From assembly GCA_029248665.1 (NCBI GenBank), contig JAQWIW010000016.1:1-64000 (forward strand): a stretch of DNA of 64,000 nucleotides. Reading direction: 5' to 3'. This document shows, in pieces, positions 14,890 to 58,287 of this stretch; the stretch's first letter is position 1; every line of letters starts with the position of its first letter. The position numbers were made by a program, and so were the translations under genes. This stretch comes from Opitutia bacterium (GTDB lineage: Bacteria > Verrucomicrobiota > Verrucomicrobiia > Opitutales > Coraliomargaritaceae). The notes beneath the pieces are model-generated. The model did no database searches and was not told where the DNA came from. It saw only the letters and a program-made list of their open reading frames with translations.

Positions 14890-17553
14890 ATGACCATGCA
14901 ATCGGACGCTATTAGACAATCTTTTCTCGATTTTTTTGAAGCAAAAAAACACACTATCGTTGCGTCTGCTTCCTTAATGCCTACCTCTCCAAATTTGCTG
15001 TTCACAAATGCAGGCATGAATCAATTTGTTCCCTATTTCTTAAATGAGACCACTCCACCTTATTCAAGAATCACCAATTCTCAAAAATGTATCCGTGCTG
15101 GCGGAAAACACAATGACCTAGATGATGTTGGATTTGACACCTACCATCACACTTTTTTTGAGATGCTGGGCAATTGGTCCATCGGTGATTACTTCAAAAA
15201 AGAAGCGATCGAATGGTCTTGGGAACTTTTGACTGGCGTATGGGGCTTTCCTAAAGAAAGACTCTATGCCACAGTATATAAACCAGAGGCGAATGACCCT
15301 TCAGAATTTGACCAAGAGGCCTACGACTATTGGGAAGCCATTTTTAAGAAGGAAGGACTTGATCCCAAAATTCATATTCAATTCGGCAATAAAAAAGATA
15401 ATTTTTGGATGATGGGTGAAACAGGGCCTTGCGTACCTTGCTCTGAACTTCATATAGATTTAACGCCTGAAGGCGATACTCAAGGCACACTTGTCAACAA
15501 AGACTCCCCTTGGTGTATTGAAATTTGGAATCTTGTTTTCATTCAGTTAAACGCCACTATAGACGGAAGCTATGATGCACTTCCTGCTCGCCACGTTGAC
15601 ACAGGAATGGGCTTTGAGCGAATTGCAGGTATCATGGCTACGACGCAACAATTCACTGATTTCACAAATCCTCCAAGTAATTATAATAGTGATTTATTTA
15701 AGGGAATCTTTGAGTCCATAGAAAACATGTGTGAGCATAAGTATGCCTACACTATGCCAGAGAGCCGTACCTTTAAAAATGAAACTGAGGCCAATGATTG
15801 TGCCTTTCGTGTGATTGCTGATCATATTAGAACCTTAAGTTTTTCAATTGCCGATGGCATCATTCCGAGCAATGAAGGCCGTAATTATGTTCTTCGACGC
15901 ATTCTAAGACGTGCTATTTTATTTGGTCGTAAGCTCCATTTACCCGCAGGCTTTTTCACTAAATTATCAAAGACTCTAGTGAAACAAATGGGCGTGGCTT
16001 ATCCCGAATTAGCCGATCAAAAAACTACCATTGAAAAAGTTATTGCAAGCGAAGAATCTGCATTCAACAAAACTTTAGAGCGAGGACTGCAACTCTTTGA
16101 TAAAATGAGCGCCAAAGGCTCCATAACTGGAGAAGAAACATTTTCACTTTATGATACATATGGATTCCCTTTTGACCTCACTGCTCTGATTGCCGAAGAA
16201 CGTTCTATTTCCATTGATAAAGCAGGCTTTGATTCCTGTATGAGTGAGCAAAAAGAACGTGCTCGTTCTTCTCAGAAAAAAGAAGTCGTTTTGACAGCAC
16301 AAGATAGTGATCTTACTAAAACCAATTTTCAGGGCTTTAATCTTAATTCTGAAGAATTTTCCGCTCAGATTATTTCAGTAGAAAGCCTTGAGGACAATGC
16401 CTCTGCAGTCATCCTTGATCAAACAACCTTTTATGGAGAGATGGGCGGACAAGTCGGTGATACCGGAACTTTAACTACAGACGCAGGTAAAACCTACCCA
16501 GTAATAGGCACCCAAGTTAAAAACGGCATTTATCTTCACTTAGTTAAAACTCAAGAAGCATTAGAAGGAACAGTAAGCCTGAGTATCAATCTTGACCGTA
16601 GACAGGCCATACAGAGGCACCATAGCGCCACGCACCTTCTCAACTGGGCCTTACGTAAGACTTTAGGAACACATATTCAACAGGCAGGCTCTTATGTGTC
16701 TGAAAATCGTTTACGTTTCGATTTTTCTCACTTTGAAGCTATTGATGCAAAAACACTTCAAGCTATAGAAGAATCGATCAACGAAAAGATTATTGAAAAT
16801 TCATCCGTAAATACTTACGAAGTGGCTTACAAAGATAAGCCTGAAGATGTTGTTGCTGTCTTTGGTGAAAAATACGGAGACCAAGTACGCATTGTTGATA
16901 TTGGTGGATTCTCTAAAGAGTTATGCGGTGGTACTCACGTAGAGGCGACGGGTGAAATTGGCCTCTTTAAAATTATCTCTGAATCAGGCATTGCCGCAGG
17001 CACTCGAAGAGTCGAAGCAGTCTGCGGAGCAACCGCTTATGGCTTAGCTGAAGAACGTTTTTCACAAATCAATACATTGGCCAATAAATTCAACTGTGCT
17101 TCAGATGAAATAGGTGAACGAATTGATGCACTATTAGATTCTAAAAAAGCACTAGAAAAAGAATTGAAACGCTTTCATCAAAAATCACTTTCTGAACAAG
17201 TTGATAAACTCGTAAAGAATGCAGAAGTCATCGATGATAAGATTGCCTACCTAAATAGCTTAGTCACTTTATCAGATAGTAATGACCTAAAAAATTTAGC
17301 CAACCAAATCTTAGCTAAGCTAGATTCTGGCATAGTCGTTCTTGCTTCAAATACCAATGGCAAAACTCAAATTTGTGCGGCTCTATCTCAAGGAGCCATT
17401 GATCAAGGCTTTAATGCAGGTAGCATCGTAAAAGAAATCTGTGAAACACTAGGTGGCCGAGGTGGAGGCAAAGCTAATTTCGCAATGGGAGGGGCACCGG
17501 AGAACCAATCTCTAGCTCAAGTCATTAAGGAATATTTGCCTAAAATGGCTTAA
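14890..17553 (+). CDS. alaS: Alanyl-tRNA synthetase
   Basis: This is a class II synthetase of 887 residues, the full family length. The catalytic domain has FTNAGMNQFVPYF and the class II motif 2 region (THHTFFEMLGNWS-like, from about 80). The editing domain has HHSATHLL from residue 577 and the zinc-associated CGGTHVEATGE from 679. A C-terminal coiled coil and the glycine-rich C-Ala domain (GGRGGGKANFAMGG) complete it. Translation may start at ATG 14890 or at the ATG two codons later. The gene's 3' end overlaps the end of the convergent last pseudopilin gene by 14 bases. Confidence 0.97.
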   Translation: MTMQSDAIRQSFLDFFEAKKHTIVASASLMPTSPNLLFTNAGMNQFVPYFLNETTPPYSRITNSQKCIRAGGKHNDLDDVGFDTYHHTFFEMLGNWSIGDYFKKEAIEWSWELLTGVWGFPKERLYATVYKPEANDPSEFDQEAYDYWEAIFKKEGLDPKIHIQFGNKKDNFWMMGETGPCVPCSELHIDLTPEGDTQGTLVNKDSPWCIEIWNLVFIQLNATIDGSYDALPARHVDTGMGFERIAGIMATTQQFTDFTNPPSNYNSDLFKGIFESIENMCEHKYAYTMPESRTFKNETEANDCAFRVIADHIRTLSFSIADGIIPSNEGRNYVLRRILRRAILFGRKLHLPAGFFTKLSKTLVKQMGVAYPELADQKTTIEKVIASEESAFNKTLERGLQLFDKMSAKGSITGEETFSLYDTYGFPFDLTALIAEERSISIDKAGFDSCMSEQKERARSSQKKEVVLTAQDSDLTKTNFQGFNLNSEEFSAQIISVESLEDNASAVILDQTTFYGEMGGQVGDTGTLTTDAGKTYPVIGTQVKNGIYLHLVKTQEALEGTVSLSINLDRRQAIQRHHSATHLLNWALRKTLGTHIQQAGSYVSENRLRFDFSHFEAIDAKTLQAIEESINEKIIENSSVNTYEVAYKDKPEDVVAVFGEKYGDQVRIVDIGGFSKELCGGTHVEATGEIGLFKIISESGIAAGTRRVEAVCGATAYGLAEERFSQINTLANKFNCASDEIGERIDALLDSKKALEKELKRFHQKSLSEQVDKLVKNAEVIDDKIAYLNSLVTLSDSNDLKNLANQILAKLDSGIVVLASNTNGKTQICAALSQGAIDQGFNAGSIVKEICETLGGRGGGKANFAMGGAPENQSLAQVIKEYLPKMA

Positions 17554-18433
17554 CCGGAAAGTGTACTCTTCGGATAAATTTCTCACTGTGTAAACGGATT
17601 ACATCTGCAGGTGTCTCAGATCGTTGTGCGACATTTCGCATAATTTCAGCACCTTCATCAGAAAGAACGGTTAATTTAATATCTGCGTACGCTAGAGCTC
17701 TTTGATAATGTTCCAACTTTGCCTGAGGTCCTATTGTGGCCTCTCTTCCACCGTAAATAACCGACCGCCTAGGGTTTTTTTTGTGTTGGTTAAAATATAA
17801 GCGTGGCGTTGAGCGATTGCCGTCATCTTCCAAGTAAAAATCAATCTCAAATCCAACAATATTTGAAGCGAGGTAATTATCCCCATTCATGCCTTTAACC
17901 AAATTCCCTTCTCCCCAATTAGGACTTTTCTTATTCGGCAATCTCTCTCGGCTAGACAAATCTAAAAGGTCTCGATAAGTTGTTTCAGGATCTACTTCCA
18001 AGCGGTATAAGACAAAGGCTTTTTCCCCTCTATTTGAACCATCAACAGGGTTCACATAGTGAACATTATAAGCAACTGCTGAAATCTCTCCCGGTATGGT
18101 AATTCCTTTAGAATCGGTCGGCTTATTTTTGATCACGCTGAAAAACCTTAAGGCGACTGATTTTGATTTAGCCGGTTCTTTTAAAATATCATTTTCTGCT
18201 CTGAACCATTCATGGCCATCATTCCTCACAACAATACCTTCTAAATCATTGGCAATGACATCCATGGCCACACGAGCTTCCGAAGAAGCAGATAGCTTTC
18301 CAGAAGTACGGCTCCAAGCATTTAAAACTTCTCCCGTGATCTGTATGGCTAGACCAAATAAAACAATGATTATCACAGTGCTAACCATGATTTCAATTAA
18401 AGTATATCCTTTTGATTTCATTGACCTTTTCAT
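17540..18433 (-). CDS. Pseudopilin, GspJ-like (last of five)
   Basis: This 297-residue protein has a class III signal with prepilin peptidase site KG|YTLIE, conserved Glu at +5, and a hydrophobic helix to about residue 33. The position in the operon, large size and SGKLSASSEARVAMDVIANDL segment after the helix fit the GspJ/minor pseudopilin type. They also recall the verrucomicrobial Verru_Chthon cassette protein C, which I name from memory. The start overlaps the preceding gene's stop by 4 bases. It would be inserted in the inner membrane and processed by a prepilin peptidase encoded elsewhere. Subtype assignment is inferred. Confidence 0.78.
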   Translation of the reverse strand: MKRSMKSKGYTLIEIMVSTVIIIVLFGLAIQITGEVLNAWSRTSGKLSASSEARVAMDVIANDLEGIVVRNDGHEWFRAENDILKEPAKSKSVALRFFSVIKNKPTDSKGITIPGEISAVAYNVHYVNPVDGSNRGEKAFVLYRLEVDPETTYRDLLDLSSRERLPNKKSPNWGEGNLVKGMNGDNYLASNIVGFEIDFYLEDDGNRSTPRLYFNQHKKNPRRSVIYGGREATIGPQAKLEHYQRALAYADIKLTVLSDEGAEIMRNVAQRSETPADVIRLHSEKFIRRVHFPVKPF

Positions 18434-19077
18434 CGATTAATAATGGTTGAATAAGAGAAAATGGGATCTTCCTGTAAAATCTCTTTAAGAGGAATATTTT
18501 CTTTAAATGCTGGCCCGTGAGCGTTGACGTATATCGAAATTTGAAGCGGTAAATAATTGCTTTTAAAGTTATCACTATTAGCCGTGAGGTAATAACGAGG
18601 CTTAGCGCTTCTTCCTCGGTCTCTGTAATATTGCTTAGGAATCTGAGGCCCGTTGGTTATGATTGCTCGATATATAGGCCCAGCCGAATTTCTGAAATTA
18701 TAAACCTTAGCACTTTTATTTATCTGAAGACTAGGGGTTCTTTCTTTTGGCGAAAATCCAATGGATAACTGAATATCTGTAGAATCATTAGAAGAATATG
18801 AACGAAAAACGTAAATCGTAGCATAACCACTGGACTTAACGGCTTCGTAAATTAAATCAAAACTTGATCCATCTACGGCTAAACTGGAATCTGCCTGCAG
18901 AAAACTATTTAGAGACTCTACTATTGATGGAATTTCATCCAATTCTTTTGCGTCGTCGAGCGACGATAATATCGGCCCAAGCATAGCTACGAGAACCATT
19001 ACTATAATCAATAAAATACCAATCGAAAATATTGTTTCAATTAAACTAAAACCTTTCTTATGCTTTGTTTTAAACAT
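18430..19077 (-). CDS. Pseudopilin, GspI-like (fourth of five)
   Basis: This 215-residue protein begins MFKTKHKKG|FSLIETIFSI, with a prepilin peptidase site, Glu at +5 and a hydrophobic N-terminal helix (about residues 10-32). The rest is a soluble, beta-rich extracytoplasmic domain without recognisable motifs. The gene lies 22 bases after the GspH-like gene and overlaps the GspJ-like gene by four bases, so the products are probably made together. GspI-like is inferred from gene order and the short helix-loop pattern, not from a diagnostic motif. Confidence 0.75.
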   Translation of the reverse strand: MFKTKHKKGFSLIETIFSIGILLIIVMVLVAMLGPILSSLDDAKELDEIPSIVESLNSFLQADSSLAVDGSSFDLIYEAVKSSGYATIYVFRSYSSNDSTDIQLSIGFSPKERTPSLQINKSAKVYNFRNSAGPIYRAIITNGPQIPKQYYRDRGRSAKPRYYLTANSDNFKSNYLPLQISIYVNAHGPAFKENIPLKEILQEDPIFSYSTIINR

Positions 19078-19099
19078 TTTTAAAAAATCATTTACTCTT

Positions 19100-19807
19100 T
19101 TATTGAACTGCCTTTATTTGCGTTACTGCATCTATTTGATTTGGGTCGGTGATCAAGGTCGTCGAGCCTACTCTTCGAAAAATCAAACCTGACTTAAATC
19201 CGGATATAGCTGGATCATCAAAAGAAACATCCAACTGACGATTTGCATCTGGTTTAAGCACACCTGCTCCAAAGATTAACCAAGCATTCACAAACTTTGC
19301 CGCAGTGGTTCCATTCGCATTAAATTCATAAAAATAATATTTTTCACCGATTTTAGGATCACTAACCTTCGATTTAATTCGAGGATATTCCAAGCGCATC
19401 TGCCCCACTCGCTTATCTCGGCCATTAGCAATTCGACTGAGTTTTGGCATGAAATATATTCCCTTAGGCAAATAAGTTCCCTTAGTACCGGCAATCCATT
19501 TACTCGAATCCTGGGGATCCTGTGTGATGATACCAAAAAACCTTAGATATTTATCATCATCTCTATCTTCACCTTTATCTGCATAAATAATCAAACGAGA
19601 CGGTGTTTGCTTCAAAATAGCTTGTCCTCTAACCCCTTGAGCAATTGAAGAAAGAATACGTTGTGAAGATTTCAGAGATACCCCCTCATCATTTGTTATG
19701 TTTATCACAATAAATGAAAAAGCTAGTATCATGATTGCTAGCACCACAACTAGTTCTATTAAAGTAAATCCCTTGGATTGCTTCTTCATTTTATACAAAT
19801 TCTTCAA
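19100..19807 (-). CDS. Pseudopilin, GspH-like (third of five)
   Basis: This 235-residue protein has a prepilin-type leader, KG|FTLIELVVVLAIMILAFSF, with Glu at +5. Downstream, KSSQRILSSIAQGVRGQAIL followed by SRLIIYADK matches the general layout of GspH/FimT-like minor pseudopilins: an amphipathic helix, then a beta strand with a basic residue. It follows the second GspG-like gene after 19 bases. The C-terminal domain is unusually long for GspH. Its role would be in assembly of a pseudopilus tip complex. Confidence 0.75.
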   Translation of the reverse strand: MKNLYKMKKQSKGFTLIELVVVLAIMILAFSFIVINITNDEGVSLKSSQRILSSIAQGVRGQAILKQTPSRLIIYADKGEDRDDDKYLRFFGIITQDPQDSSKWIAGTKGTYLPKGIYFMPKLSRIANGRDKRVGQMRLEYPRIKSKVSDPKIGEKYYFYEFNANGTTAAKFVNAWLIFGAGVLKPDANRQLDVSFDDPAISGFKSGLIFRRVGSTTLITDPNQIDAVTQIKAVQ

Positions 19808-19826
19808 GAATGGTTCGGTAAAAAGC

Positions 19827-20420
19827 TTAATCTTCCCAGAGAGAATAAGCAGGGTACAATTTCAAATTATCCGATTCTACCCAAGCAGTAATCTTGCCTC
19901 TTATTGCCTTTTTCAACCTCTTGGGGGATGATAAACTCGGCCTAGGATCAAGAAAGCCATCTCCATTACCATCTATCATTATGCAAAGATTTTTATTATT
20001 AAAGCCATCCGCCAATTGTGTATGCACTGTTTGTTCGTTATCTCCTATGTAAAATTCCTTTTCCGAAAAATCATAAAAAGTAATTCGTTTGCGATTGCCA
20101 CCAACACTCTTGGGTTTGCCTGTTTTGGCATCACGACCCGACATAATTTCGATAAATTCTTTAGCTACCTCTGGATCAGAGAATTTGATGACGTAGTCTT
20201 TATCGCCACGAGCAAAGGGATAATAACCGTATTCATCTTCAAATTGAATAATTGCATTTACATATTGAAACAATTGGGCTTTGCCTGAGGCAATTGTCGC
20301 ACTGCGCATAACTTTCCAGATATTTGGACTCAAAATACTGGTCAGCAAACCAATGATGGCCACTACCATCAATAATTCGACAAGCGTAAATCCTTTTTTC
20401 GTTTGTTTATTCTTAATCAT
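19827..20420 (-). CDS. Pseudopilin, GspG-like (second of five)
   Basis: This 197-residue protein has the leader KKG|FTLVELLMVVAIIGLLTSI, Glu at +5, then a long helix. It has the major-pseudopilin feature FEDEYGYYPF near residue 65. The EYGxYP element is shared with GspG, where it precedes the variable loop and the calcium site. It comes directly after another GspG-like gene (1-base gap), so the cassette has two. Whether it is the structural subunit or a minor one cannot be decided. Confidence 0.78.
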   Translation of the reverse strand: MIKNKQTKKGFTLVELLMVVAIIGLLTSILSPNIWKVMRSATIASGKAQLFQYVNAIIQFEDEYGYYPFARGDKDYVIKFSDPEVAKEFIEIMSGRDAKTGKPKSVGGNRKRITFYDFSEKEFYIGDNEQTVHTQLADGFNNKNLCIMIDGNGDGFLDPRPSLSSPKRLKKAIRGKITAWVESDNLKLYPAYSLWED

Positions 20421-20421
20421 A

Positions 20422-21021
20422 TTAATCTTCTAAATAAATGTTATCGATATTTTTATCTAAATTCCTGTAAGCGAGATTTGAAACACCCTCTTTAGGCAGA
20501 GGACTATCCAATTTATCAGGACCTTTTGAATAGAGTACAAATGAATAATTATTCCAATCCTTAGACTCTTTGTAAGCATAGACGTAAGCTTGTCCCCAAG
20601 GGTCTATTAATCTTACATTACTCGGTATTTCCTCTGCCGATATTGGCAACTCTCCTTCATAAAGAAATTTAGACGGATTAATCAAAGCCTTAACTCCCCC
20701 ATACGGAATCTTGCTTCGATCAATAAATTTAGCCGGCCTACCTTCAAAGATTTTCCATCCCAATAAGGCCTTTGATAAAGTTATCGCATTGTTTTCTTCA
20801 TCTTCAGTTATCGGATAATCGCCATACTCTGCATGAAATTGAGATAAAGCTATTGAAATAAGCGCAATTTCTGACTTTGCAATCGACTTCATGCGGGCAG
20901 ACAGAATCCCTGAAGTCATACCAAAAGTGATTCCTGCTAAAAAAACTATCACACCCATCACAATCAAGATTTCAACAAGGGTGAAACCAGCACGATCACT
21001 ATTATTTGGGGATAACTTCAT
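20422..21021 (-). CDS. Pseudopilin, GspG-like (first of five)
   Basis: This 199-residue protein has the cleavage site AG|FTLVEILIVMGVIVFLAGI, Glu at +5. The soluble domain shows the GspG-like sequence: AEYGDYP near residue 63, then LIDPWGQAYVYAY and YSKGPDKLDS near the C-terminus, the DPWGxxY...S.GPD pattern of major pseudopilins. It is the first gene of a five-gene minus-strand operon (G, G', H, I, J). There are no genes for the secretion ATPase, platform protein or secretin nearby. Confidence 0.82.
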   Translation of the reverse strand: MKLSPNNSDRAGFTLVEILIVMGVIVFLAGITFGMTSGILSARMKSIAKSEIALISIALSQFHAEYGDYPITEDEENNAITLSKALLGWKIFEGRPAKFIDRSKIPYGGVKALINPSKFLYEGELPISAEEIPSNVRLIDPWGQAYVYAYKESKDWNNYSFVLYSKGPDKLDSPLPKEGVSNLAYRNLDKNIDNIYLED

Positions 21022-21068: not shown

Positions 21069-21920
21069 TTAATATGTATAAGGCTTTTTGAAAATAGCAC
21101 CACTTCGCCTTCTCTCTGCTATTTTATCGACCTCTAAAGGGTTCATTCGTTCGGGTAAATTGCTTACAGGATCAATTTTCCACAAGGCAGGCTTAAGATC
21201 ATGATTCACTGCGACTCGGTAATCAAAAACAAAACAATCACCCTCCCATAAGCTCTCATTTTTCGGCATGCTTTCTAAATATTTTAAAATACCACCTTTT
21301 AAATGATAGACATTTTTGAATCCTTTTTCTTTCAAATAAGCGGTCGATCGCTCACAGCGAATCCCCCCCGTACAGTACATGGCAATTTTCTTATCTTTAT
21401 GCTCCACTAATTGTTGATCTACGAAATCGGCAAAATCAGTAAAATCATCGGTATTAGGGTTTATCGCCCCTTTGAATTGGCCAACTTTAACTTCATAATC
21501 ATTTCTCGTATCAATCGTGATCACATTTGGGTCACTGATTAGACTATTCCAATCTTCAGGTTCTAAATATTCGCCAACTGCATTTCTTGGATCCGCCCCA
21601 CTTTGACGAAAAGTAACAATCTCAGGTTTTTTCTTAACTTTAAACTTAGGAAAAGGACAAAAATCAGCGTACGAATATTTCACTTCCATCGACTGAAAGC
21701 GTTTGTCAGAACAGATCAATGCTATGGTGCGATCAATTGCTTCTGCTGATCCAGCGCATGTTGAATTGATTCCTTCTTCAGCAAGTATGATTGTACCACG
21801 CAAGCCGACAGATAAACCATGCTCAACCAGACGGTCGGCCCATGATTCATAATCTGAAAATTTCGTGAAATGATAAAAGGCTGCGATCTTCCACGAATTA
21901 TTTGTATTTGAAACTTCCAT
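21069..21920 (-). CDS. trhO: tRNA uridine(34) hydroxylase, TrhO/YceA family (rhodanese domain)
   Basis: TrhO catalyses oxygen-dependent hydroxylation of wobble U34 in tRNA (ho5U). The N-terminal domain has FYHFTKF, LRGTIILAEEGINST and CPFPKFKVKKKPEIV, typical of the family. The rhodanese domain follows, with TIDTRNDYEVKVGQF and the active-site Cys in YCTGGIRCERST. The ATG at 21920 is chosen. An upstream ATG at 21956 would add 12 residues, and the leader is unlike the family. Divergent rph starts 82 bases away, so the two likely share a promoter region. Confidence 0.9.
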   Translation of the reverse strand: MEVSNTNNSWKIAAFYHFTKFSDYESWADRLVEHGLSVGLRGTIILAEEGINSTCAGSAEAIDRTIALICSDKRFQSMEVKYSYADFCPFPKFKVKKKPEIVTFRQSGADPRNAVGEYLEPEDWNSLISDPNVITIDTRNDYEVKVGQFKGAINPNTDDFTDFADFVDQQLVEHKDKKIAMYCTGGIRCERSTAYLKEKGFKNVYHLKGGILKYLESMPKNESLWEGDCFVFDYRVAVNHDLKPALWKIDPVSNLPERMNPLEVDKIAERRRSGAIFKKPYTY

Positions 21921-22002
21921 TATTGAGGGTTGCCAAAATTTGAAATTAGTTGTCAAAATAATCTACACGACAAAATTTAGGCAAATCAATAAATCACACA
22001 AT

Positions 22003-51602: not shown

Positions 51603-52853
51603 CTATTTAAATTTCACTTTAATTCCTTTTCTTAGATAGGTGGGTTGATCTAAATTGATTCCCTTAAATAATTTACTAGATGAATCGACAAAATAACCTC
51701 GATCCTCTTCTTTGTCAAAGAAAGCAAACTCTTTTTGGTCATCCATTTCTTTCTCTCCTTTTTTACTGAGCTTTGAACGATGAACCTTTAAAATATTCGG
51801 TGATTTTTTCTTTTTGGATAGTTCCTCTGAACCACCTTCATCATCAGAAAATAAATCACCCTCAAGCTTTTTATTTTTGGGAATTTGATCAATTTCAGAT
51901 TTTCCAAAAATACTAATCTTTAGTGAATTAATTAAGGAATCATCCACATAAGCAGAAACAAGAATATCCTTTTTGAAATTAAATTTTTGAGCAATCAGTG
52001 ATGCAACCTTATGAATGATCGATAATTCTAAAGATTGGTTACCTTTAATTACAATCATCAGTCCATCTAGATCTTTTGGTTGATTTTCCTGATGTAAAAG
52101 TGGATTCATTAATAAAGATTGAATATGTGTCTCAATCGCATTGTCTGCCAAATCGAGAATATTTGTATCTTGCGAGACCGCTAATAACGACTTTCCACCT
52201 CTTGCCTGAAATAACTGCTTTAGTGAGCCTAAATCTTGGTTGATAATCCCATTTTCAAAGAGAACATCGGAAAGTGCACTAAGGCTATTTAAAATCCATC
52301 GGTTACCCATTTCAAAGCCATTTAAAGCGGTTTGATCTGCATCTCCTTCTTGCAATAAAAGATCATTAGGTATGGAAAACATTCCATGAAGCGAAGGTCT
52401 TAATTCATTGATAAAGTTTTCACCTTTTGAAAAACGAGCCCCTTCGAAACTAAAAGGAAGCACAAAAAACCCTAGAGTAATCGCCCCAGTCTTTTCCGCT
52501 AATTCAGAGATTAATAAAGAGAAAGCGCTACCGACCCCACCTCCAAGACCCGCAACAAGAATAATAACATCTGCATCTTCCAACCATGAACTGATTACTT
52601 CGCGATGTGAATTAATTGCTTTTTCTGCAAGATCTATATCGCCTCCGCAACCAAGCCCGCGGCAAATTTCTTTCCCAATAAGATGGGACTCTGTATTCTG
52701 CGTAGTCGTTATCGCTTTAGCATCAGTGTCCAATGTATGGCATTCAAACAAACCATTCGATTCTTGTGCGAAAGCATCTACAATATGCATACCCGCTCCA
52801 CCTAAACCAAATAATTTTACTTTTATACCTACGTCGTTCATCACATATTCCAT
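51603..52853 (-). CDS. ftsZ: Cell division protein FtsZ, divergent GTPase motifs
   Basis: FtsZ forms the cytokinetic ring. The 416-residue protein aligns along the GTPase domain: GLGGAG at the first loop, DTDAKAI, PFSFEGA and IPNDLLL. The tubulin signature GGGTGTG is GGGVGSA (104-110). In the T7 loop INQDLGSL the catalytic Asp equivalent to E. coli Asp209 is kept (Asp207) but the Asp212 equivalent is Ser210. The C-terminus has DQPTYLRK (402-409), matching the FtsA/ZipA-binding peptide, preceded by a long charged linker. The start abuts the ftsA stop. The gene context makes FtsZ certain, its activity less so. Confidence 0.92.
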   Translation of the reverse strand: MEYVMNDVGIKVKLFGLGGAGMHIVDAFAQESNGLFECHTLDTDAKAITTTQNTESHLIGKEICRGLGCGGDIDLAEKAINSHREVISSWLEDADVIILVAGLGGGVGSAFSLLISELAEKTGAITLGFFVLPFSFEGARFSKGENFINELRPSLHGMFSIPNDLLLQEGDADQTALNGFEMGNRWILNSLSALSDVLFENGIINQDLGSLKQLFQARGGKSLLAVSQDTNILDLADNAIETHIQSLLMNPLLHQENQPKDLDGLMIVIKGNQSLELSIIHKVASLIAQKFNFKKDILVSAYVDDSLINSLKISIFGKSEIDQIPKNKKLEGDLFSDDEGGSEELSKKKKSPNILKVHRSKLSKKGEKEMDDQKEFAFFDKEEDRGYFVDSSSKLFKGINLDQPTYLRKGIKVKFK

Positions 52854-55061: not shown

Positions 55062-55993
55062 GAATTTGTATTCCGATCATCCTTAAATCGCTCAATGCCA
55101 TAAGAAAGCATTGTTTTAATTAATGCATCAAAATCAATACCTTTAGCCGCCGCTGACTTAGGTAAAAGACTCTGTGAAGTCATACCCGGTATACTATTAA
55201 CTTCTAAAAAGTAAGGAATATCATCTTCTAATATAAAATCGATACGAGCAAAGTCTCGACACCCGCAAATTTTGAAAATCATTTCTGCTTCAGATTTAAT
55301 TCTATCCGTAATTTCATTGGGTAATTCTGCTGGGCAAAAATACTCCGTAGAACCATGAAGGTACTTCGTATCATAGTCATAACATTCTTTTGCATACTTA
55401 ATTTCAACTACTTCCAAAGCATTTCCACCAAGCAGCCCAATCGTCAACTCTCGTCCTTTCAGCCTCCGTTCAACTAACCAATTTCCCGAATTAATTTTTG
55501 ATAAAGCAAGCCCCATCGATGAACGATTTTCAATCATATTCAATCCATAACTACTTCCTGAGTCTTTCGGTTTAAGCACGAGAGACTCCCCAAGAACTTT
55601 AATAATATCATCGGCAAGTGGTATCGTATTTGCGTCAAAAGAAAGTGATTCTGCTGTCTTTATTCCCAAAGTTTCCACACGATCCTTAGCCAACATTTTA
55701 TCCATACATAAAGCACTAGAAGTCGCATCACTGCCGACATACTCTATACCCTTCTCCTCTAAAATACTTTGCAAATCACCATCTTCACCAAAAGCACCAT
55801 GAATCATAGGAAAAACGATGTGCGAATCTGCCTTAATCGATTCTGGGATCTTACGATTCTCTAAACAGATAGCCTCAACTGGGTAATTAAGTTTCAGAGA
55901 ATCTGCTACAGCACTACCACTTTTTAAAGACACCTCACGCTCTTCTCCGAAGCCACCATAAAGCACAACAATTGATTTCAAAGAATTCATCAT
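55058..55993 (-). CDS. ddl: D-alanine--D-alanine ligase
   Basis: This is an ATP-grasp ligase of 311 residues that makes D-Ala-D-Ala for peptidoglycan. It has VLYGGFGEEREVSLKSG at the N-terminus and HGAFGEDGDLQSILEEKGI. LKPKDSGSSYGL carries the ATP-binding Lys, followed by FARIDFILEDDIPYFLEVN and SIPGMTSQSL. The C-terminal ligase motifs are complete. Overlaps both neighbours by 4 bases (murC-murB stop and ftsQ start), so it is translationally coupled. Confidence 0.95.
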   Translation of the reverse strand: MMNSLKSIVVLYGGFGEEREVSLKSGSAVADSLKLNYPVEAICLENRKIPESIKADSHIVFPMIHGAFGEDGDLQSILEEKGIEYVGSDATSSALCMDKMLAKDRVETLGIKTAESLSFDANTIPLADDIIKVLGESLVLKPKDSGSSYGLNMIENRSSMGLALSKINSGNWLVERRLKGRELTIGLLGGNALEVVEIKYAKECYDYDTKYLHGSTEYFCPAELPNEITDRIKSEAEMIFKICGCRDFARIDFILEDDIPYFLEVNSIPGMTSQSLLPKSAAAKGIDFDALIKTMLSYGIERFKDDRNTNS

Positions 55994-58287
55994 TTTCCTA
56001 AGTTATATGCCCCTTCATCATCCAAAGCAGTCGGCAATTCATCCCCGAGCAACAAAACTTCAGGCTCCAAATCAATCCCACACTCCTCTTTCACTCGTTT
56101 TTGTATTAAAGCAATCAAGGATCGTACGTCTTTAGATGTTGATCCTCCTTGATTAACAATAAAATTCCCATGTTTATCCGACACCGCAGCACCACCTACA
56201 CTAATATTCTTCAACCCTAACTCATCAATCAAACGTCCTGCATAGTCATTCTCCGGATTTTTAAAAATACACCCTGCACTCGGAGCAATTGGTTGACTCC
56301 CCTTACGCACATCCGAATAAGAATCCATCCGTTCACGGATTGAATCACTCGCTTCTACCTCGCTCAATTTTAAGACCGCACCCAAAGCTATTCCGTTCGC
56401 AATTTCACGAACCTTTCGGTATTCGATAGTAAATTCATCTCGCCCTAATTCTTTCACTTCTGAAGCATCATTTACCATCAAAACTCGCTCCACAACATCA
56501 AATGTCCAGCGTCCCATTGCCCCAGCATTCATTCGTAAAGCACCCCCCAAAGTTCCAGGTATCCCCTCAAGAAATTCAAATCCTGAAAATCCTAACTGTG
56601 CCGCTTTCCCACAGAGATTCTTTAAACGTACCCCACAACCAACCCATAAATGAGAATCATCTATTTTTCGAATTTTCTGCCAATTTTTATGGTTAAAACG
56701 AATCACTAAACCGCCATATCCAGCATCTGCTACCAAAACATTGGAACCTCTTCCCAGACAAAAATAAGGCAGTCCAAATAATTTCGAAGATTGGATTAAG
56801 GCAAGGACATCTGAAATGCTTGAAGGCTCTGCATAATATTCTGAAAGACCTCCTATCTTAAAAGTCGTTTTAGACGCCAAATTTTCAGATAAGTTTAAAA
56901 CACAATCCGAAGAAACTTTCTTTTTGGTATAATCAAGCCAAGCATTTTGTTTACTAGCAACCGCATATAATGAGCAAAATGCATGCGCAAATTCATTAAT
57001 CGAACCCGCTCCTATAAATAATAAAATCTTGTTTTTGATTTTTGAGCTTTTCTTAAAATAGGATACAAGGTCCTTCAATCCCGATTGATTAAAGCTCAAT
57101 TCAACAGGTTTCGCACTATCAAAAGCAGACACAAAATCTCCAGACATACCTCCCTCACATTCTCTTTCAAAAGCCGAATAGACCGGTAATACAAACACTC
57201 TATCAGCCGATGATAAAGACTTTATAAAATCTCGATTTAAAGCCTTTGTCCGTGAGTGTCGATGAGGCTGGAAAACCACCGTCAAATCACAATCCATAGA
57301 TTCATTCTTAATCGCTTTAATTAATATATCTATTTCAGAAGGATGGTGTGCATAATCTTCAAGTACCATCAACTGTTCCTTTGAAAGCAAAATATTCTGC
57401 CTACGGTCAACACCAGGAAAGGCTTTAAACAATTCTTCCCTCGATGGAAAATCACTCTGGAACAAGCCTAAAACACCCTCCGCAAACATTTGATTATGAC
57501 AATTAAAGTCTGCATTCAACATACCATTCCCTGGCTCAAGTAATGTACCAGTGCCCAAAGTGTCATCTGTCGTCACTAATTTTGTATCGATAAATACACA
57601 CCGATTAGAAAACGCTTCACGGGCTTCAAAAGCTTCAAAATTTGAGGCTTCAATTAAAACCTTTGAGCGAGTCCTAAGTAACAAGCCTTCAAACACTTTT
57701 TTCAAACTATCAAAATCCTGATAATAATCGATGTGATCCCAATCTAAATTCAGCAGTACTGAAATCTCTGGATTGAATCCATTAATCGTTCCATCACTTT
57801 CATCAATTTCGGCCAGTAACCATTCTGAATCACATACATAATAGGGCGCAGTTGCGTCCTGATAAAATCCGCCCACAATAAAATTAATCGATAGATCTAA
57901 TTGACGAATAGCGTGCCCGATTAGTGCACTAGTCGTTGTCTTACCATGACTGCCCACAATCGCGATTAATTTTTTAGATTTCGCAACCTCTGCTAACTTC
58001 TCACCTCGCTTTAGACAAGGTATATTCAGATGCTTTGCCTCTTTTAAAAGATGATGACTTTTCGCAATCGCATTTGAATAAACAATTTGGTCATAAGATT
58101 TTATATCTTCGATTAAAACCTCATCCAATAAATTCACCGCCGAGTTAGTTAAATAGCCTAAGGCATATTGCTTTAAATAATCATCATAGCCAAAAATCGA
58201 TTCCCCATTTCCAGCTAACCACATAGCTAAAGGAGCCATGCCAGCTCCCCCCACACCTAGAAATAAAATTCTTTTTTCAGTTCTCAT
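55990..58287 (-). CDS. murC/murB: MurC-MurB fusion (UDP-MurNAc--L-Ala ligase / UDP-GlcNAc-enolpyruvate reductase)
   Basis: This 765-residue protein joins two consecutive steps of UDP-MurNAc-L-Ala synthesis. MurC (about 1-445) has the GxGGAGM N-terminus, the ATP-binding GSHGKTTTS (112-120) and DYAHHPSEI near 311. MurB (about 460-750) has the FAD-binding KTTFKIGG, LGRGSNVLVAD and GIPGTLGGALRMNAG. Tyr623-Arg624 follow, then Ser670 in PSAGCIFKNP and Glu743-region EPEV. The reading frame is continuous with no stop or slippage site at the junction. Reaction order is MurB then MurC, so the fusion is in reverse of pathway order. Confidence 0.95.
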   Translation of the reverse strand: MRTEKRILFLGVGGAGMAPLAMWLAGNGESIFGYDDYLKQYALGYLTNSAVNLLDEVLIEDIKSYDQIVYSNAIAKSHHLLKEAKHLNIPCLKRGEKLAEVAKSKKLIAIVGSHGKTTTSALIGHAIRQLDLSINFIVGGFYQDATAPYYVCDSEWLLAEIDESDGTINGFNPEISVLLNLDWDHIDYYQDFDSLKKVFEGLLLRTRSKVLIEASNFEAFEAREAFSNRCVFIDTKLVTTDDTLGTGTLLEPGNGMLNADFNCHNQMFAEGVLGLFQSDFPSREELFKAFPGVDRRQNILLSKEQLMVLEDYAHHPSEIDILIKAIKNESMDCDLTVVFQPHRHSRTKALNRDFIKSLSSADRVFVLPVYSAFERECEGGMSGDFVSAFDSAKPVELSFNQSGLKDLVSYFKKSSKIKNKILLFIGAGSINEFAHAFCSLYAVASKQNAWLDYTKKKVSSDCVLNLSENLASKTTFKIGGLSEYYAEPSSISDVLALIQSSKLFGLPYFCLGRGSNVLVADAGYGGLVIRFNHKNWQKIRKIDDSHLWVGCGVRLKNLCGKAAQLGFSGFEFLEGIPGTLGGALRMNAGAMGRWTFDVVERVLMVNDASEVKELGRDEFTIEYRKVREIANGIALGAVLKLSEVEASDSIRERMDSYSDVRKGSQPIAPSAGCIFKNPENDYAGRLIDELGLKNISVGGAAVSDKHGNFIVNQGGSTSKDVRSLIALIQKRVKEECGIDLEPEVLLLGDELPTALDDEGAYNLGK

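Follow-up and report, generated by a model that had tools for sequence, protein, structure and literature searches.

Five adjacent pilin-like genes in the genome of an Opitutales bacterium probably encode, judging from sequence comparisons, the pilins of a second, dedicated type IV pilus-like filament machine, distinct from the type II secretion system (T2SS) of the same genome. The genes lie within a stretch of 64,000 nucleotides of contig JAQWIW010000016.1 (hereafter the window), on the minus strand at 17540-21021, in the order G1-G2-H-I-J (Table 1). An earlier note on this DNA had described them as an orphan pseudopilin operon in which each gene has a prepilin peptidase site with a glutamate at +5, and all five are present there with this residue (GFTLVE, GFTLVE, GFTLIE, GFSLIE and GYTLIE). 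The spacing between them is 1, 19, about 22 and -4 nt, and thus they look like a single operon. In a genome search the Pfam N_methyl model matches all five genes above cut-off; in a protein-level profile search four of the five pass, I reaching 20.5 bits against a cut-off of 21.2. The flanking genes look unrelated: a rhodanese-like gene (21069-21956) precedes the operon, and alaS (14890-17553) follows it convergently with a 14-nt overlap. The orphan position also holds, as profile searches gave no T2SSE, T2SSF or secretin match on the cassette contig and no GspK gene was found near the cassette. A scan for promoters and terminators yielded no more sites than shuffled sequences. Elsewhere in the window, an FtsZ-like protein encoded beside an FtsA-like gene (51603-52853, minus strand) carries the GTP-binding signature GLGGGVGSAF where the usual FtsZ signature is GGGTGTG, so it appears to be a divergent FtsZ, and a cell-wall gene cluster includes a 765 aa ORF resembling a MurC-MurB fusion (55990-58287, minus strand).

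Table 1. The five pilin-like genes of the cassette, with positions in the window.
Gene	Assignment	Length (aa)	Position	Strand	Feature
G1	GspG-like, candidate major pilin	199	20422..21021	-	DPWGxxY...SxGPD motif; T2SSG (PF08334) above cut-off
G2	second GspG-like pilin	197	19827..20420	-	N_methyl above cut-off; TIGR01710 E 9.8e-9, below cut-off
H	GspH-like minor pilin	229	19100..19789	-	ATG start at 19789; alternative TTG at 19807
I	GspI-like minor pilin	215	18430..19077	-	TIGR02598 (Verru_Chthon B) only at E 0.04, below cut-off
J	GspJ-like minor pilin	297	17540..18433	-	TIGR02599 (Verru_Chthon C) best match, below cut-off

The assignment as G-G'-H-I-J with a duplicated GspG-like gene, proposed from motifs and gene order, is borne out by profile matches and by recurrence in relatives. 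G1 contains DPWGQAY, SKGPDK and AEYGDYP; T2SSG is matched by 17 of its 18 orthologues, and it hits the gspG model TIGR01710 at E 7.7e-11, yet below cut-off. The best TIGR01710 score of any cassette protein is 42 bits against an equivalog cut-off of 88.85, and other Gsp models score lower. G2, conserved in an alignment of 19 loci, has DEYGYYP (EYGYYPF) and then D-x-FNN...DGNGDG at the place of the DPWG of G1. By sequence match its N-terminal half resembles GspG/PilA structures; its predicted structure (mean pLDDT 63) found no PDB or viral match and is uninformative. For H, the ATG is the more likely start. Orthologues of the three minor pilins match Verru_Chthon families: those of H match TIGR02596 (Verru_Chthon D) in 15 of 17 cases and TIGR01708 gspH in 17 of 17, those of I match Verru_Chthon B in 17 of 18 and gspI in 8 of 18, and those of J match Verru_Chthon C in 16 of 16. 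The window proteins, H included, match the NCBIfam GspG, GspH, GspJ and Verru_Chthon B, C and D models but never above cut-off, and with this limit the suggested likeness to verrucomicrobial pseudopilin cassettes is real. An AlphaFold2 model of J, built from 4 sequences (mean pLDDT 58, pTM 0.58), predicts a GspJ-like fold: VIA-align gave Z 8.8-11.3 against EpsJ, XcpW and TTHA1219 (9.4-11.3 for EpsJ and XcpW, 10.6-11.3 against 3cfi, 3nje and 2ret), the next unrelated row being at 3.4.

The cassette pattern is not due to chance, because the G1-G2-H-I-J order recurs in many relatives. Of the 57 genomes 35 have G1, among them 25 of the 36 good ones, and J was found in 31 of these 36 at E 1e-5 and in 28 at E 1e-15, the window's own genome being counted throughout. 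In most Opitutales relatives searched the cassette occurs once per genome. It forms an isolated block in many genomes of the family (f1) and in four genomes of other families of the order (G044, G051, G055 and G056); for genus g4, matches to G1 and to J lie on separate contigs (C7 and C5 of G009). Among the fetched loci the neighbours vary outside the window's genus, and no motor gene adjoins the cassette in any fetched Opitutales locus. In the five alignments each class has conserved features of its own, for example DPWG...SxG for G1 and D-x-F-N-N...DGDG for G2. A scan of contigs added loci L079, L080, L081, L083, L096 and L101, most loci among the matches listed being unrelated pilins. One of them, L079, is labelled as a Betaproteobacteria MAG and holds a complete Opitutales-type five-pilin cassette; it is probably mis-binned or misnamed.

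The earlier note had proposed a search of the remaining genome for machine genes, and such a search (1.42 Mb, 35 contigs, completeness 97.8%) brought up a T2SS set on contig C8 and, in addition, a second cluster of two ATPases and a platform on C6. On C8, genes for GspG, H, I, J and K, two ORFs taken by their position as GspL/M-like, and the gene for GspD stand in a row. Three ATPases and two platforms are encoded in total: C6 carries two of the ATPases (E1 and E2) and one platform, and the third ATPase (C22) and the second platform (C34) each stand alone. The ATPase and platform of the T2SS are unlinked from its operon. The genome gave one prepilin peptidase match and only three strong T2SSE-family matches, none of them PilT-like. 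Most relatives fetched have PilT between E1 and E2, whereas the window's genus and G037, G043, G046, G051 and G053 lack it at this place. A second secretin is split over the ends of contigs C14 and C33 (L197 and L027), which overlap with 80% identity, perhaps reflecting strain variation in the assembly. Upstream of it on C14 are ORFs of 295, 323, 574 and 215 aa, in an order matched in G014 and G055; PilO is weakly matched by the 323 aa protein, and the whole forms a PilM-like/PilO-like/secretin operon. Several further observations concern these gene classes. C34 also carries a lone extra pilin-like gene (L026 5033-5740) whose C-terminus bears a GGHILFYDGHVEFF stretch, as in the H-X9-DG prepilins that are common in Planctomycetes and relatives. 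G002 has two C6-type platform/ATPase sets (L212, contig C54), with platforms 92% and 78% identical to that of the window's genome, as a result of duplication or contamination. A third platform class (e.g., G014:C1:1621454-1622533), sharing 35-43% identity with the C6 platform, is present in many relatives and absent from the window's genome.

Direct linkage of such pilins to such a motor is found in one contig only, L083, a Verrucomicrobiales MAG whose operon reads E1-PilT-E2-platform, two small genes, five pilins and a GspK-like giant of 1200 aa. By BLAST, E1, E2 and the platform of C6 are 57, 50 and 49% identical to their counterparts in this operon, whereas the C6 platform shares only 27% identity with the platform in the T2SS operon of L096, a Verrucomicrobiales locus whose gene order is T2SS-like. 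In trees, E1 of L083 falls in the E1 clade (0.95) and its E2 with E2 (1.0), while the C22 ATPase groups with the T2SS ATPase of L096 (0.99). When compared as profiles with the five cassette alignments, the L083 pilins best match, in order, G1, G2, G2 or H (a tie), I and J, whereas the T2SS pilins of L096 give no such diagonal; the C-terminal domains of the L083 pilins alone score low and are barely recognisable. Co-occurrence in the 36 good genomes, in counts uncorrected for phylogeny, points the same way. Cassette J and the C6-type platform are both present in 27, J alone in one (G044), the platform alone in two (G016 and G025) and neither in six, which belong to six different families (27/1/2/6; Fisher 9e-5). 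For J against the T2SS-type platform the direction is the same and weaker (26/2/5/3; p 0.06), and for J against the second secretin the counts are 25/3/4/4 (p 0.03); the C6-type platform and this secretin give p=0.41. In G019, which is 99% complete in 6 contigs, both cassette and motor are present, with no match to the second secretin.

The window's genome probably does have a GspK-like partner. TIGR02600 (Verru_Chthon A) matches, below cut-off and over its first ~60 positions, a 1462 aa ORF on contig C32 that lacks glutamate at +5 and fits the role of GspK. This giant lies in L171 (7617-12685), where a 220 aa partner follows it, and its family reaches at least nine copies in large relatives; across the 57 genomes, 34 have one to nine ORFs matching TIGR02600 in this way. 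The giants are about 950-1470 aa long, similar at both ends and variable in the middle by BLAST, and usually precede a conserved partner of 220-280 aa: in 25 loci the giant is directly followed by a gene of 220-282 aa, these genes belonging to one family. Thirty-three giants, collected by their GFAL N-terminus, lack glutamate at +5, as does GspK. In G043, and only there, a giant forms a contiguous run with H, I and J, the H and J of this genome clearly belonging to the cassette families, and a role of the giants at the filament tip is therefore plausible. A placement of the giants in polysaccharide-utilisation loci was also considered and is not supported: hand-picked neighbours (GH115, GH5, GH2 and a sulfatase) looked striking, but a control at random places, largely in the same genomes, gave no clear difference (sulfatases 8 of 87 around giants and 7 of 90 at random places).

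The cassette therefore bears likeness to several known systems without coinciding with any. With T2SS pseudopilins it shares the G-H-I-J order, the Glu5 prepilin motif, the T2SSG domain of G1 and the predicted GspJ fold of J, but it stays below the NCBIfam equivalog cut-offs, has a second G gene and no GspK in the operon, and is encoded apart from the T2SS machine genes. With the Verru_Chthon cassette A-D (TIGR02600, TIGR02598, TIGR02599 and TIGR02596), for which a literature search found no paper naming it, the J, I and H orthologues match families C, B and D, whereas the A-like giant is unlinked and two extra GspG-like genes are present. A type IVa pilus motor (PilB/PilT/PilC) has an assembly ATPase and platform in common with C6, and its PilT has a counterpart between the two ATPases in L083 and most relatives fetched; here, however, there are two assembly ATPases, no PilT in the window's genus, and T2SS-like pilins. 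The PilT retraction ATPase is typical of type IVa pili. The C14/C33 operon recalls the Akkermansia PilQ or MUL2 locus (Amuc_1098-1102) in its order of a ~215 aa ORF, a PilM-like gene, two more genes and a large secretin, and its gene order and sizes agree with the locus as described in the accessible text of PMC4960237 and PMC13174399. This likeness lies in gene order and size besides the weak PilO match, and the operon encodes no pilins; a sequence search found no relative of the Amuc_1102- and Amuc_1100-like proteins among solved structures.

It had been suggested that the cassette uses a shared machine encoded elsewhere in the genome. A machine encoded elsewhere is found; that it is the T2SS, shared, is improbable, given the GHIJK set of the T2SS itself, the second cluster of ATPases and platform, the PilM/PilO-like/secretin operon and L083. 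The cassette could nevertheless provide the T2SS machine with alternative pseudopilins, for instance altering which proteins are exported. The match of G1 to T2SSG, the weak matches of H and J to the gspH and gspJ models and the predicted fold of J all suit such a role, and sharing is mechanically possible since the T2SS ATPase and platform are unlinked from their own operon. Yet with GHIJK on C8 the cassette is not needed for T2SS pseudopilins, the orthologous motor operon in L083 carries pilins, and three of the six good genomes with neither strong J nor C6-type platform (G039, G042 and G048) do show T2SS-type platform matches.

Still less probable is a cassette serving both machines, its pilins polymerised by whichever platform is present: a single prepilin peptidase for all pilins and the scatter of machine components over the genome suit it, but co-occurrence favours one platform class and each machine has a pilin set of its own. 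The small genome and the absence of PilT from the motor operon in the genus might suggest a decaying, functionless operon, which is very unlikely because all five frames are open and because four other species of the genus retain both the gene order and the motifs. An outcome that would have overturned the pseudopilin reading, type IV pilins beside their own pil genes, is half realised: the proteins are GspG/H/I/J-like, while the motor looks type IV pilus-like and is not local.

The assembly ATPase, platform and prepilin peptidase of a type IV pilus are all encoded in the window's genome, and the proposed machine would work as follows. The single prepilin peptidase would process all five cassette pilins, and E1, E2 and the platform of C6 would polymerise G1, G2 or both into a shaft. 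H, I and J, with the unlinked giant of C32, would form the tip, and the PilM/PilO-like/secretin operon with its MUL2-like order would carry the filament across the outer membrane. As PilT is missing from the motor operon in the window's genus, any retraction must be PilT-independent. More tentatively, and perhaps against the odds, Verrucomicrobiota may possess a hybrid filament, in which a machine of PilB/PilT/PilC and MUL2-like type bears T2SS-type G1, G2, H, I and J with a giant GspK-like tip; the giants would then be interchangeable tips on a shared shaft.

The likeliest guess for the role of the filament is attachment to surfaces such as particles or polysaccharide, rather than secretion or DNA uptake; it is a guess because the random-place control revealed no clear sulfatase enrichment around the giants. 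In a haloalkaliphilic isolate related to Opitutales, a pseudopilin is over-expressed on alginate and one pulG-like pseudopilin has 67 homologues (PMC13274419), and for aquatic Akkermansiaceae MUL2 is proposed to serve particle attachment in the accessible text of PMC13174399. For Akkermansia and aquatic relatives, MUL2/PilQ is the machinery presumed to produce pili, whose shaft pilins are not identified in the accessible text of PMC4960237 and PMC13174399. The cassette is a concrete candidate pilin set for a machine of this kind, and the annotation 'pseudopilin' in Verrucomicrobiota need not imply type II secretion.
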